DNA of 57,674 nt, taken from assembly GCA_017934955.1 (NCBI GenBank), contig JAGBIO010000026.1, forward strand, positions 1 to 57,674, written 5' to 3'. A program made the translations under genes and the position numbers. Source of the DNA: Clostridia bacterium (GTDB lineage: Bacteria; Bacillota; Clostridia; TANB77; RGIG9151). The first letter of the stretch is position 1. Each line of letters begins with the position of its first letter. A model generated the notes under the pieces. It saw only the letters and a list, made by a program, of their open reading frames with translations. It ran no database searches and was not told where the DNA came from. Shown here piece after piece: positions 47,513-57,674 of this stretch.

Positions 47513-47938
47513 TTGTAGGAGACGGTGTCATCGACGTGTCATCGACGTCCCGAATCTAAATTGCAATTTGCCAAGGATTTTCGCTCGTTCCATCCCTCCC
47601 ACTTTTCCGCTTTTTCTGTGGACACAATAAATTGTGTCCCTACATATTTGTAGAAAGATGTAATCTAATTTGTACGGACACAATTCATTGTGTCCTATTT
47701 TTACGTCTGCTTTTACTGTGGACAGCATTCGCGGACGTAACACCGAATGGAATGTCATTGTAGGGGCGACTATCAGTCGCCCGTTGTAGAACGTCTGTCG
47801 GGCGATTAATAATCGCCCCTACATCTTTGTTATCGTATAGAGAAAATACGAATTGTGTCCCTACAGTGTTTGTCCCCTCCTTGTAGGAGACGGTGTCATC
47901 GACGTCCCGAATAATTGCAGAAATTTTAAGTTTACCTA
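47513..47938. repeat. Cluster of at least seven dispersed palindromes
   Basis: Contains GAGACGGTGTCATCGACGTC types at both ends, GGACACAATAAATTGTGTCC (47620-47639), GGACACAATTCATTGTGTCC (47675-47694), GACAGCATTCGCGGACGTAACACC (a shortened copy of the 92-bp insert), and GGGGCGACTATCAGTCGCCC with GGGCGATTAATAATCGCCCC. The part 47619-47730 matches 56213-56315. Apart from a gene relic the 550-bp gap holds no gene. Confidence 0.85.
47556..47601 (-). pseudogene. 3'-terminal relic of an InlB-repeat/DUF6273-like gene
   Basis: Encodes GRDGTSENPWQIAI and a stop on the minus strand, matching the last codons of the genes at 54740 and 56392 at DNA level. It is cut off by repeats on the upstream side and has the same CGACGTCCCGAAT repeat just beyond its stop as the gene at 56392. 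Confidence 0.88.
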
Positions 47939-48486: not shown

Positions 48487-48669
48487 GTTACCGGTTAGAC
48501 TTAATAATTTTCTATATGGACAAAATGTTCTGTATTTCTTTATAGGGACACAATGAATTGTGTCCACGAAATAGGCCCCGGTATTAAAATTAGGACACAA
48601 TGAATTGTGTCCCTACAAGTCGCATTCTGACGATATTTTAGGAAAGATACAATATCCGACTATCCTGTT
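48487..48669. mobile_element. MITE-like composite element with GGACACAAT palindromes
   Basis: Left GTTACCGGTTAGACTTAATAA; inside two GGACACAATGAATTGTGTCC-type palindromes (48546-48565 and 48594-48613); the right part GCATTCTGACGATATTTTAGGAAAGATACAA.. is shared with 29115 and 43317. The right boundary is approximate. Confidence 0.7.
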
Positions 48670-54739: not shown

Positions 54740-55927
54740 CTAAATTGCAATTTGATAAGGATTTTCACTCGTTCCGTCCCCTCCCACAATTCGAATTCCG
54801 GATTTCAGCGTAATTACGGGACGCACCCCGTACCCCAGCGAATAGGCATCAAAGCCCCCGTCCGAGTACAACTGATACAAGCCGTTGCCGTCGAATTGGA
54901 CGTTGTAGTGCACGGTACCGACTGCGTCCACAATGAGCACGCCGAAATACGAGTAGCTGCTGTTGGTTTTCAACATACGAGAATCGAGCCATACGCTCCC
55001 ACTCACGCGGAGCGGATAGTTCTCTCCGTCTTTTGTGTTTAATAATCGAATATCTTCTTTATTACATGAATCTGTATATGGAAAACCATTATTTCCATTC
55101 GTATATGTCTCTTCAAATGTAATCGGATATTTACTTTCATCAATCGTTCCAACTCCATTTCCATATCCCAAGCATCTTCCGCTTGTCGCATAGGTCGGAT
55201 TCACATATTCGCGACACAACCTGTTTAATATATCTATCGCGTAGATATACCCAGCCTTTCCTGTTAGTCTTAAGTCTCCAACGCTTTCTGCACTGATGAT
55301 TTCTAAATAATCACCATCTGTTGTATTCTTAAATACTTTCCAACTGGTTACGCTACTTGGGTTAAAAACTTGGTCAACCCCTGTACCGCTATCTCCTCCG
55401 GATACAATATGTTCTGTAGATGTCGGTTGATACATTATATAAGACCCTAATTCAACATAGTTCCATTTTGCATATAAAGTATGATCTACTGTTTTCGTCA
55501 TGCTTGTTTCACTTGTTACCGGCTCTGTTAATTCACTATCCGCGTACCAGCCTTGAAAAACATGTCCGTTTTTCGTCGGAGTAACTAACGTTCCATAGGT
55601 TTCTCCATACGATAATAGCTTACTACTTACCGTACTTCCTCCGTTACTTTCAAACGAAACCGTACATAACTTCTCTATGGTTATATCCACATTTCCTTCC
55701 GGCATTACAATCTGACGACGATTTCCTAATACTCTTAATATCGCATTTCCGCTGTTTACCGTATATTCCGCCGGCGAACGATCTCCTAACGCTATCTTTA
55801 CTGTCTTCCCTGTCTCTACTTCTCTTGTCGTTGTTTCATCTTGTGCATGAAGCGTTAAGGTATAACCGAAGGAAATACCCGTTAACAAGAATACCGCAAT
55901 TGCCATACTTACTATTTTTTTCATCAT
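54740..55927 (-). CDS. Secreted InlB-repeat / DUF6273-like protein, variable C-terminus (copy 1)
   Basis: 395 residues. Signal peptide (KKIVSMAIAVFLLTGISFGYTLTLHAQ), a short beta domain, one InlB B-repeat/Listeria-Bacteroides repeat (VSFESNGGSTVSSKLLSYGE .. TLYAKW, residues ~90-155), then a DUF6273-like lectin-fold domain ending in GVRPVITLKSGIRIVGGDGTSENP. Nearly identical to the copy at 56392 except in codons for residues ~305-370 (bases about 54850-54990), which are also GC-rich. There the differences fit adenine-directed mutation, as in diversity-generating retroelement targets. GGGAGG before two ATGs. Confidence 0.88.
   Translation of the reverse strand: MMKKIVSMAIAVFLLTGISFGYTLTLHAQDETTTREVETGKTVKIALGDRSPAEYTVNSGNAILRVLGNRRQIVMPEGNVDITIEKLCTVSFESNGGSTVSSKLLSYGETYGTLVTPTKNGHVFQGWYADSELTEPVTSETSMTKTVDHTLYAKWNYVELGSYIMYQPTSTEHIVSGGDSGTGVDQVFNPSSVTSWKVFKNTTDGDYLEIISAESVGDLRLTGKAGYIYAIDILNRLCREYVNPTYATSGRCLGYGNGVGTIDESKYPITFEETYTNGNNGFPYTDSCNKEDIRLLNTKDGENYPLRVSGSVWLDSRMLKTNSSYSYFGVLIVDAVGTVHYNVQFDGNGLYQLYSDGGFDAYSLGYGVRPVITLKSGIRIVGGDGTSENPYQIAI
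54815..54992 (-). other. Variable region of copy 1
   Basis: From the VWLDSR codons to GVRPV. Differs from copy 2 at about 25 bases plus a six-codon insertion; almost all substitutions in the core occur where one copy has, or a common template could have, A on the coding strand (for example CAC TAC AAC against AAC AAC AAC; ATT/TAT; GAC/AGC). Confidence 0.6.
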
Positions 55928-55946
55928 TTTTCCTCCCTACAAATTC

Positions 55947-56002
55947 GAATTTTTAAACAAAAAGAAGTAGTCTAAAGCCTTCTATGACTTTAAACTACTT
56001 CC
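55947..56002 (-). terminator. Terminator preceding copy 1, identical to the window end
   Basis: On the minus strand GGAAGTAGTTTAAAG/CTTTAGACTACTTC then TTTTTG. The 56 bases 55947-56002 recur without change at 57619-57674, so a whole peptide-gene/terminator/DUF6273 unit seems duplicated. Confidence 0.8.
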
Positions 56003-56024
56003 ATCATTTATTATTCTTTCTTTA

Positions 56025-56105
56025 TTATTTCTGCTTAGTTGTGTACCCCCCCCCATTTACAATTTCTGCCATTGTTGTCTGTATCAAATTCTGTAAACGG
56101 TTCAT
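56025..56105 (-). CDS. Candidate 26-aa peptide gene crossing a poly-G tract
   Basis: ATG 56105 with AAGGGAG nine bases upstream. The peptide starts MNRLQNLIQTTMAEIVN and runs through GGG encoded by nine G in a row (56046-56054), then YTTKQK. A change of one or two G would alter the end. In another frame a 42-codon ORF (56035-56163, ends CKWGGVHN) crosses the same tract but its ATG touches its ribosome site. Followed by a terminator. Could be a signalling or bacteriocin-like peptide, or not coding at all. Confidence 0.35.
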   Translation of the reverse strand: MNRLQNLIQTTMAEIVNGGGYTTKQK

Positions 56106-56204
56106 CCGAGGTCACTCCCTTTCGCAAAAAATCTTTACGTAGGAAATTATCGTCAAAAAACATCCTCCACTTTAGTCTTTTTTTTACGAATTTGTAACTT
56201 TTTT

Positions 56205-56388
56205 GCGGACACAATAAATTGTGTCCCTACATATTTGTAGAAAAATGTAAGCTAATTTGTACGGACACAATTCATTGTGTCCTATTTCTACCGTCCGCCC
56301 TTTCTGTGGACAGCATGAATGCTGTCCCTACGTGTTTGTGCCCTCATTGTAGGGGACGGCGTCCTCGACGTCCCGAATGTACAAATAG
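56205..56388. repeat. Cluster of dispersed palindromes
   Basis: GGACACAATAAATTGTGTCC (56208-56227), GGACACAATTCATTGTGTCC (56263-56282), GGACAGCATGAATGCTGTCC (56309-56328) and GGGGACGGCGTCCTCGACGTCCCG (56353-56376). Most of it matches the cluster at 47619. It follows the stop of copy 2. Confidence 0.88.
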
Positions 56389-56391
56389 TCT

Positions 56392-57561
56392 CTAAATTGC
56401 AATTTGCCAAGGATTTTCACTCGTTCCGTCTCCTCCGACAATTCGGATTCCGGATTTCAGAGAGATGACAGGTCGTACACCGTACACCAGCGAAGTGGTA
56501 CCAAAGCTTCCGTCCGAATGCGACGTATACAAGTAGTTGTTGTTCACGCTACCGTCTGCGCTCACATAGCGCACGCCGAAAAGCGAGCTGCTGCTGGTGG
56601 AGTGCAAATGACGAGAAGCAAGCCATACGCTCCCGCTCACGCGGAGCGGGTAATTCTCTCCGTCCTTCGTGTTCATAAGCCGAATGTCTTCTCCATTTTG
56701 TCCGTCTGTATATGGAAAACCCCTATTTCCATTTGTATACGTTTCTTCCCATGTAATCGGATATTTACTTTCGTCAATCGTTCCTGCTCCCGCATTATAT
56801 CCTAAGCATCTTCCGCTTGTCGCATAGGTCGAATTTACATAGGCACTACACAATCTATTTAATGTATCTATCGCGTAGATATATCCCGTTTTTCCTGTTA
56901 ATGTTAAATCTCCTATGCTTTCTGCACTGATGATTTCTAAACAATCTCCATCGGTTGCACTCCTTAATACTTTCCAGCTGGTTACGCTACTTGGGTTAAA
57001 AACTTGATCAACCCCTGTACCACTGTCTCCTCCCGATACGATATGTTCTGTAGATGTTGGTTGATACATTATATAAGAGCCTAATTCAACATAGTTCCAT
57101 TTTGCATATAAAGTATGATCTTCTGTTTTCGTCATACTTGTTTCGCTTGTTACCGGCTCTGTTAATTCACTATCCGCGTACCATCCTTGAAAAACATGTC
57201 CGTTTTTCGTGGGAGTTACTAAAGTTCCATAAGGTTCTCCATAAGATAATTGCTTACTGCTTACATGAGTTCCTCCGTTACTATTAAAGGAAACCGTATA
57301 TAATTTTTCTATCGTAATATCTACATTTCCTTCCGGCATTACAATCTGTCGCCGATTTCCTAAAACCCTTAATATCGCATTTCCGCTGTTTACCGTATAT
57401 TCTGCCGGCGAACGATCTCCTAACGCTATCTTTACTGTTTTCCCTGTCTCCACTTCTCTTGTCGTTGTCTCTCCTTGCGCATGAAGCGTTAAGGTATATC
57501 CGAAGGAAATACCCGTCAACAAGAATACCGCAATTACCACACTCACTATTTTTTTCATCAT
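56392..57561 (-). CDS. Secreted InlB-repeat / DUF6273-like protein, variable C-terminus (copy 2)
   Basis: 389 residues from the double ATG behind GGGAGG; twelve further codons upstream come from a dispersed palindrome and are discarded. Same plan as copy 1: signal peptide, InlB repeat (VSFNSNGGTHVSSKQLSYGE), lectin-like DUF6273 domain. Variable part (VWLASRHLHSTSSSSLFGVRYV..DGSFGTTSLVYGVRPV, split here) around bases 56465-56632. A wall anchor (LPxTG) is not seen, so it is probably released or held by other means. Role as binding protein inferred from fold. Confidence 0.88.
   Translation of the reverse strand: MMKKIVSVVIAVFLLTGISFGYTLTLHAQGETTTREVETGKTVKIALGDRSPAEYTVNSGNAILRVLGNRRQIVMPEGNVDITIEKLYTVSFNSNGGTHVSSKQLSYGEPYGTLVTPTKNGHVFQGWYADSELTEPVTSETSMTKTEDHTLYAKWNYVELGSYIMYQPTSTEHIVSGGDSGTGVDQVFNPSSVTSWKVLRSATDGDCLEIISAESIGDLTLTGKTGYIYAIDTLNRLCSAYVNSTYATSGRCLGYNAGAGTIDESKYPITWEETYTNGNRGFPYTDGQNGEDIRLMNTKDGENYPLRVSGSVWLASRHLHSTSSSSLFGVRYVSADGSVNNNYLYTSHSDGSFGTTSLVYGVRPVISLKSGIRIVGGDGTSENPWQIAI
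56465..56632 (-). other. Variable region of copy 2
   Basis: Counterpart of 54815-54992; contains runs of AAC and AGC codons (AGC AGC AGC; AAC AAC AAC) that are typical of template-derived variable regions. Confidence 0.6.
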
Positions 57562-57618: not shown

Positions 57619-57674
57619 GAATTTTTAAACAAAAAGAAGTAGTCTAAAGCCTTCTATGACTTTAAACTACTTCC
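57619..57674 (-). terminator. Terminator preceding copy 2
   Basis: Identical to 55947-56002; implies another transcription unit ending just outside the window. Confidence 0.75.

Follow-up and report, generated by a model that had tools for sequence, protein, structure and literature searches.

Diversity-generating retroelements (DGRs) rewrite a variable region (VR) in a target gene: a reverse transcriptase (RT) copies the RNA of a template repeat (TR) and misincorporates bases opposite its adenines, and the resulting cDNA takes the place of the target's VR, as established for BPP-1 (PMC8144416). In Treponema denticola, one RT and TR serve distant targets, up to seven per strain, and several strains keep two to six targets without RT and TR (PMC4891356). 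Remote targets escape surveys that take the RT as their starting point (PMC8144416). DGR targets of Faecalibacterium, Flavonifractor, and related phages carry DUF6273 domains (PMC11792537, PMC10743442); in the phage targets the VR lies in or at the C-terminus of this domain, which is C-type-lectin-like in published models. Here we describe six genes of a Clostridia bacterium that we consider, with a probability of roughly 0.9, to be dispersed (remote) targets of a DGR whose core either has been lost or sits in sequence that is unassembled or unreadable.

The window analyzed is a stretch of 57,674 nucleotides that constitutes contig C14 of a 1.57 Mb genome in 35 contigs. At its right end, two genes lie in tandem on the minus strand with 86% overall identity: gene A (56392–57561; 389 aa from the ATG at 57561, or 401 aa from an upstream ATG) and gene B (54740–55927; 395 aa). 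Both encode a signal-peptide-like N-terminus, a beta domain, a Flg_new repeat, and a VR-bearing C-terminal domain of ~235 residues. The Flg_new (Listeria-Bacteroides) repeat spans residues 88–154 of A (57100–57300, minus strand; PF09479, E = 1.5e-20) and residues 89–154 of B (55466–55663, minus strand; E = 2.7e-18), and PF09479 was the sole Pfam match over the cut-off. As the first-pass annotation had reported, the two genes are alike at the N-terminus, with near-identical signal peptide and repeat regions, and differ in a dense block near the C-terminus. Its label of DUF6273-like did not carry over to the profile level, since the Pfam profile gave no match to the target proteins at E ≤ 5; the resemblance is nevertheless a fair one, because DUF6273 proteins are published DGR targets with the VR in that domain. 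Unlike the DUF6273 targets, which are phage-borne with a linked RT, the present proteins had neither such a match nor phage or plasmid relatives in the collection searched. An AlphaFold model built from two sequences reached a mean pLDDT of 33, and sequence searches of the PDB returned no relatives, with matches at chance level (E ≥ 0.17).

Seven close copies of the gene occupy five loci in the genome: A and B in the window, copies C and D on contig C23, E on C29, F on C34, and G on C16. Contig breaks remove the 5′ ends of D, F, and G. An eighth, diverged relative of 436 aa on contig C33 (L223:1787-3097) also has the WLASR...GVRP region and stands outside the homogenized set. An intergenic piece of 47 bp in the window (47556–47602, minus strand), which matches the final ~48 bases of A at 92% identity, looks from its sequence like the 3′ remnant of a further, deleted copy. 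A hairpin-forming repeat upstream of A (57636–57674, unstranded), within which the window's contig ends, recurs upstream of B, C, and E, and contigs C1 and C29 each have it at an end.

The surrounding DNA holds other repeats. Many short palindromic repeats, of the GGACACAATNNATTGTGTCC and AGGGGACGGCGTCCTCGACGTCCC types, are dispersed in intergenic DNA and also lie beside target copies; sites in the window are 47600–47680, 48540–48620, and 56200–56290. Between A and B, ~120 bp upstream of B, there is a run of nine C (56046–56054), a tract that could be prone to slippage and affect expression of B. Elsewhere in the genome, contig C10 matches the Rfam family RF02920 (Fusobacteriales-1 RNA; L255:300-416, 95.6 bits against a cut-off of 52.1), and contig C34 carries flagellar genes.

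The VR of A consists of 43 codons (56482–56610, minus strand; residues 318–360 of 389; HLHSTSSSSLFGVRYVSADGSVNNNYLYTSHSDGSFGTTSLVY) and that of B of 49 codons (54830–54976, minus strand). In codon alignment, B has six extra codons (54887–54904, minus strand; AAC GTC CAA TTC GAC GGC), which account for the length difference pointed out in the first-pass annotation; this 18-nt insertion is missing from the other five signature-bearing copies, and mutagenesis of adenines does not explain it. The VR begins after W-L-x-S-R and ends before G-V-R-P, near the 3′ end of the coding sequence. Variation is thus narrower than the whole lectin-like end first proposed, as the final ~29 codons are conserved again.

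The divergence of the VR was measured on a codon alignment of the six copies A, B, C, D, F, and G. Pairwise amino acid difference is 0.505 in the VR, compared with 0.22 before and 0.06 after it, while silent difference runs the other way, at 0.107 in the VR versus 0.27 before and 0.23 after. Silent divergence in the VR is also well below that of the remainder of the domain (0.259; column permutation, p = 0.00025). Median dN/dS values are 0.40/0.15 in the VR, 0.16/0.69 before, and 0.03/0.38 after. The VR is therefore the most variable segment in dN and yet the lowest in dS, which locates the change at codon positions 1 and 2. Among codon pairs that differ in amino acid, the third base is identical in 83% within the VR versus 46% elsewhere, and positions 1 and 2 are both changed with position 3 kept in 29% versus 9%. 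Third bases kept in changed codons indicate that the VRs come from a recent common source in which selected codons were rewritten at positions 1 and 2. Copy E, left out of the alignment, lacks this signature, and its VR departs from those of the other copies at every codon position. At the first two codon positions, the proportion of variable columns in which an A occurs differs only weakly from that in the rest of the gene; an adenine bias judged within the six copies alone fails to distinguish the VR from its flanks and was dropped as evidence.

The role of adenines was instead assessed against the TRs of relatives. We scanned for repeat pairs that differ only at the A of one partner, and the TR/VR pair of BPP-1, whose mechanism we assume to be alike, was recovered as a control; there, RT, Avd, and TR are linked and proven, and the target is unrelated in sequence, unlike the present case. 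A lax scan gave many AT-rich false pairs (as in genome G368), and pairs were retained only if the target frame was open and the non-A bases were conserved. The scan found many DGRs in the same order. One genome, G377, has a complete cassette on its contig C3 with a homologous target, Avd (phrog_3206, E = 4e-18), TR, and RT (RVT_1, E = 7e-18). In three more (G347, G244, and G325), a homologous target lies on the same stretch as a TR and RT, and in G277 a TR/VR pair was found for a homologous target, with no RT on its contig. The present genes are accordingly homologous to targets with a linked TR and RT, and the VR of these relatives' targets lies at the same place.

The G377 cassette also encodes two small MutS domain I proteins (PF01624, E = 9e-12 and 7e-11; L162:9599-12116), which may be accessory genes.

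Four homologous TRs, all from relatives in the order and not from the window's own genome, are exactly 43 codons long and could be laid over the six VRs without gaps except at B's 18-nt insertion; an RT lies beside the TR in three. Of the 36 positions at which all four TRs carry A, 34 vary among the six copies, compared with 22 of the 73 positions at which no TR carries A. The four independent TRs predict the variable nucleotides (40/46 versus 26/83, p = 5e-10), and each is predictive individually (p = 4e-8 to 1e-10). Among 43 codon shifts the true register scores best, and the association persists at codon positions 1 and 2 only (p = 1e-5 to 4e-8). Five of the six copies are individually A-biased, the exception being F (p = 0.18), and the bias is absent when the control copy E is compared with the consensus (p = 0.53). 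With template adenines predicting the variable nucleotides, third positions fixed, and positions 1 and 2 scrambled, the proposal in the first-pass annotation that these are adenine-mutagenized DGR targets is supported. Two results had been named there as counting against it: a genome without an RT, which holds for all readable sequence, and comparable substitution away from A in further copies, whereas in the larger set substitution at the two kinds of site is clearly not comparable.

Variation at template adenines, with other bases kept, is accompanied by some decay at non-A sites. The statement that each difference between A and B fits a template codon with A was too generous, as some sites have no A in any of the four TRs, for example CTC/CGC at VR codon 14 and GTG/GGG at codon 42. 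Such differences off the template adenines speak against a DGR-target reading, as does the insertion in B. Measured from the majority, non-A deviations number 2 in A, 2 in D, 4 in G, 5 in B, 5 in C, and 11 in F, and the VRs of relatives deviate from their own TRs at about 0–2 non-A sites in the alignments. By this count, A and D are roughly as clean as the VRs of TR-bearing relatives. We read the unequal counts as different ages since the last rewriting, with decay in F and C; copy F looks long retired.

No RT was found in the window, as first observed, and none was found in any readable sequence of the genome with PF00078, the BPP-1 bRT, and the G377 RT as queries. The bRT query matches 229 of 385 genomes of the order, where DGR-type RTs are common. 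The first-pass annotation had suggested looking further afield for an RT, an Avd gene, and a template, and the readable genome yielded none: phrog_3206 found no Avd, and BLASTN searches that took the VR region and an inferred TR as queries returned only known gene copies, the 47-bp tail relic, the diverged paralog, and short chance matches. None of the components of a complete DGR (a DGR-type RT, TR, and Avd) was therefore found in readable sequence. RT and Avd were also not found in two other genomes of the same family. These missing components count against the DGR-target reading, as does the reliance on TRs that are homologous and not this genome's own.

Searches in other collections gave little that was related. 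Protein-alignment search of genome and viral contigs found no related loci. The VR DNA pattern matched two genome contigs from unrelated organisms, one of which, from Agathobaculum, gave no TR/VR pair on scanning, and matched no viral contigs. TR-pattern searches in viral contigs gave either nothing or other phage loci, and the one inspected was a DGR of another kind. An RVT_1 match in a genus mate, G001 (L073, contig C1 of that genome), was rejected as a DGR RT, as the 1119-aa frame that contains it has an endonuclease-like stretch preceding the RT; this frame is probably a eukaryotic LINE element contaminating the G001 genome.

For the genome as a whole, the absence of RT, Avd, and TR is unproven, because five contigs of 1.5–2.7 kb (C6, C15, C17, C28, and C31) were read as N and fall outside the genome-wide negatives, and because the assembly is broken at members of this gene family in six places (the right ends of C14, C23, and C1, and the left ends of C34, C16, and C29). 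Contig C1 ends at the start codon of a gene of this type; for C29 and the window, the break falls in the shared upstream repeat. A complete DGR could thus be present in the cell with its core cassette in these unassembled or unreadable parts, a version of the DGR-target reading that we set at about even odds, if slightly less, against loss of the cassette. The clean state of A and D, with as few non-A deviations as VRs of relatives that have TRs, is in keeping with a hidden cassette. Against it, the assembly retains contigs down to 1.5 kb, each of the seven assembled copies has either another copy or genes unrelated to DGRs downstream, RT and Avd are missing from both relatives in the family, and F and C have decayed. 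That the six targets are still being rewritten by an RT and template supplied in trans from a mobile element or another replicon, with no DGR RT of their own, we consider improbable, and a working DGR nearby or active now cannot be supported.

If duplicated genes were under ordinary diversifying (positive) selection in their surface loops, without any targeted mutagenesis, that selection alone could reach the VR dN/dS of about 2.6, and other loops of the target protein vary too. Selection does not, however, lower silent divergence, and dS is 0.15 in the VR versus 0.69 in the adjacent domain; nor does it account for the excess of codons changed at positions 1 and 2 with position 3 kept (29% versus 9% elsewhere). 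The genus mate G001, a genome without a DGR RT, serves as a negative control. Its paralogs have homologous domains that are hypervariable at the same place, as selection would allow, but they are best explained by ordinary divergence: their silent sites are saturated (0.49), and third positions agree in 34% of changed codons, not 83%. A variable loop alone therefore does not yield the signature, and we judge selection alone to be a highly improbable explanation. Gene conversion among paralogs or silent cassettes, shuffling the VR as in other antigenic-variation systems, would lower silent divergence and finds some footing in the tandem and dispersed copies with long identical stretches and in the 47-bp relic, but it would also homogenize positions 1 and 2, where diversity is highest, it gives no reason to expect a match to the adenines of relatives' TRs, and BLASTN with the VR region and the inferred TR found no extra cassette, so that we give it almost no weight.

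We therefore favor targeting by a DGR, and by analogy with known DGRs the chemistry of retrohoming would apply here. In this mechanism, an error-prone RT would copy the template repeat and misread its adenines, and the cDNA would replace the variable region of each target. Each replacement would randomize the first two bases at about 20 codons that read AAC/AAT in the template and restore the other bases to the template, with the rewritten codons falling in a putative ligand-binding face of an exported protein. One trans-acting RT would have served all copies, and the core cassette would have been lost after it last acted or would reside in an unassembled or unreadable segment. The targets may be displayed at the surface and bind ligands, in which case the exported protein would be variable in its binding.

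The arrangement resembles that of the TvpA-type targets of T. denticola, with several dispersed exported targets that have a C-terminal VR of about 43 codons. There, 38 of 56 variable VR columns (68%) face TR adenines, and here 43 of 66 (65%) do so against the G377 TR. Unlike in T. denticola, the protein family has no FGE-sulfatase match and bears a Flg_new repeat domain instead, and a strain of the present species with the core cassette is not known here. The G377 DGR is similar in another respect: its target (L162:12165-13349) has a homologous C-terminal domain (about 40% identity) with a VR of equal length between WLASR and G(V/F)RP, and its variable codons coincide with those of the present copies. 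Unlike the present targets, it belongs to a complete, linked cassette and has a hydrophobic, pilin-like N-terminus (GITLIALVITIIVLLILAGV) rather than a signal peptide and Flg_new repeat. Homologous VR domains are therefore borne on different export or anchor modules.

The finding adds one member to a known kind, the remote and currently orphan DGR targets. DGR targets can be recognized without a nearby RT or template, from low silent and high amino acid divergence taken together with a comparison to the templates of relatives. The genome offers a natural experiment in which retired (F), fresher (A and D), and never-homogenized (E) copies stand side by side.
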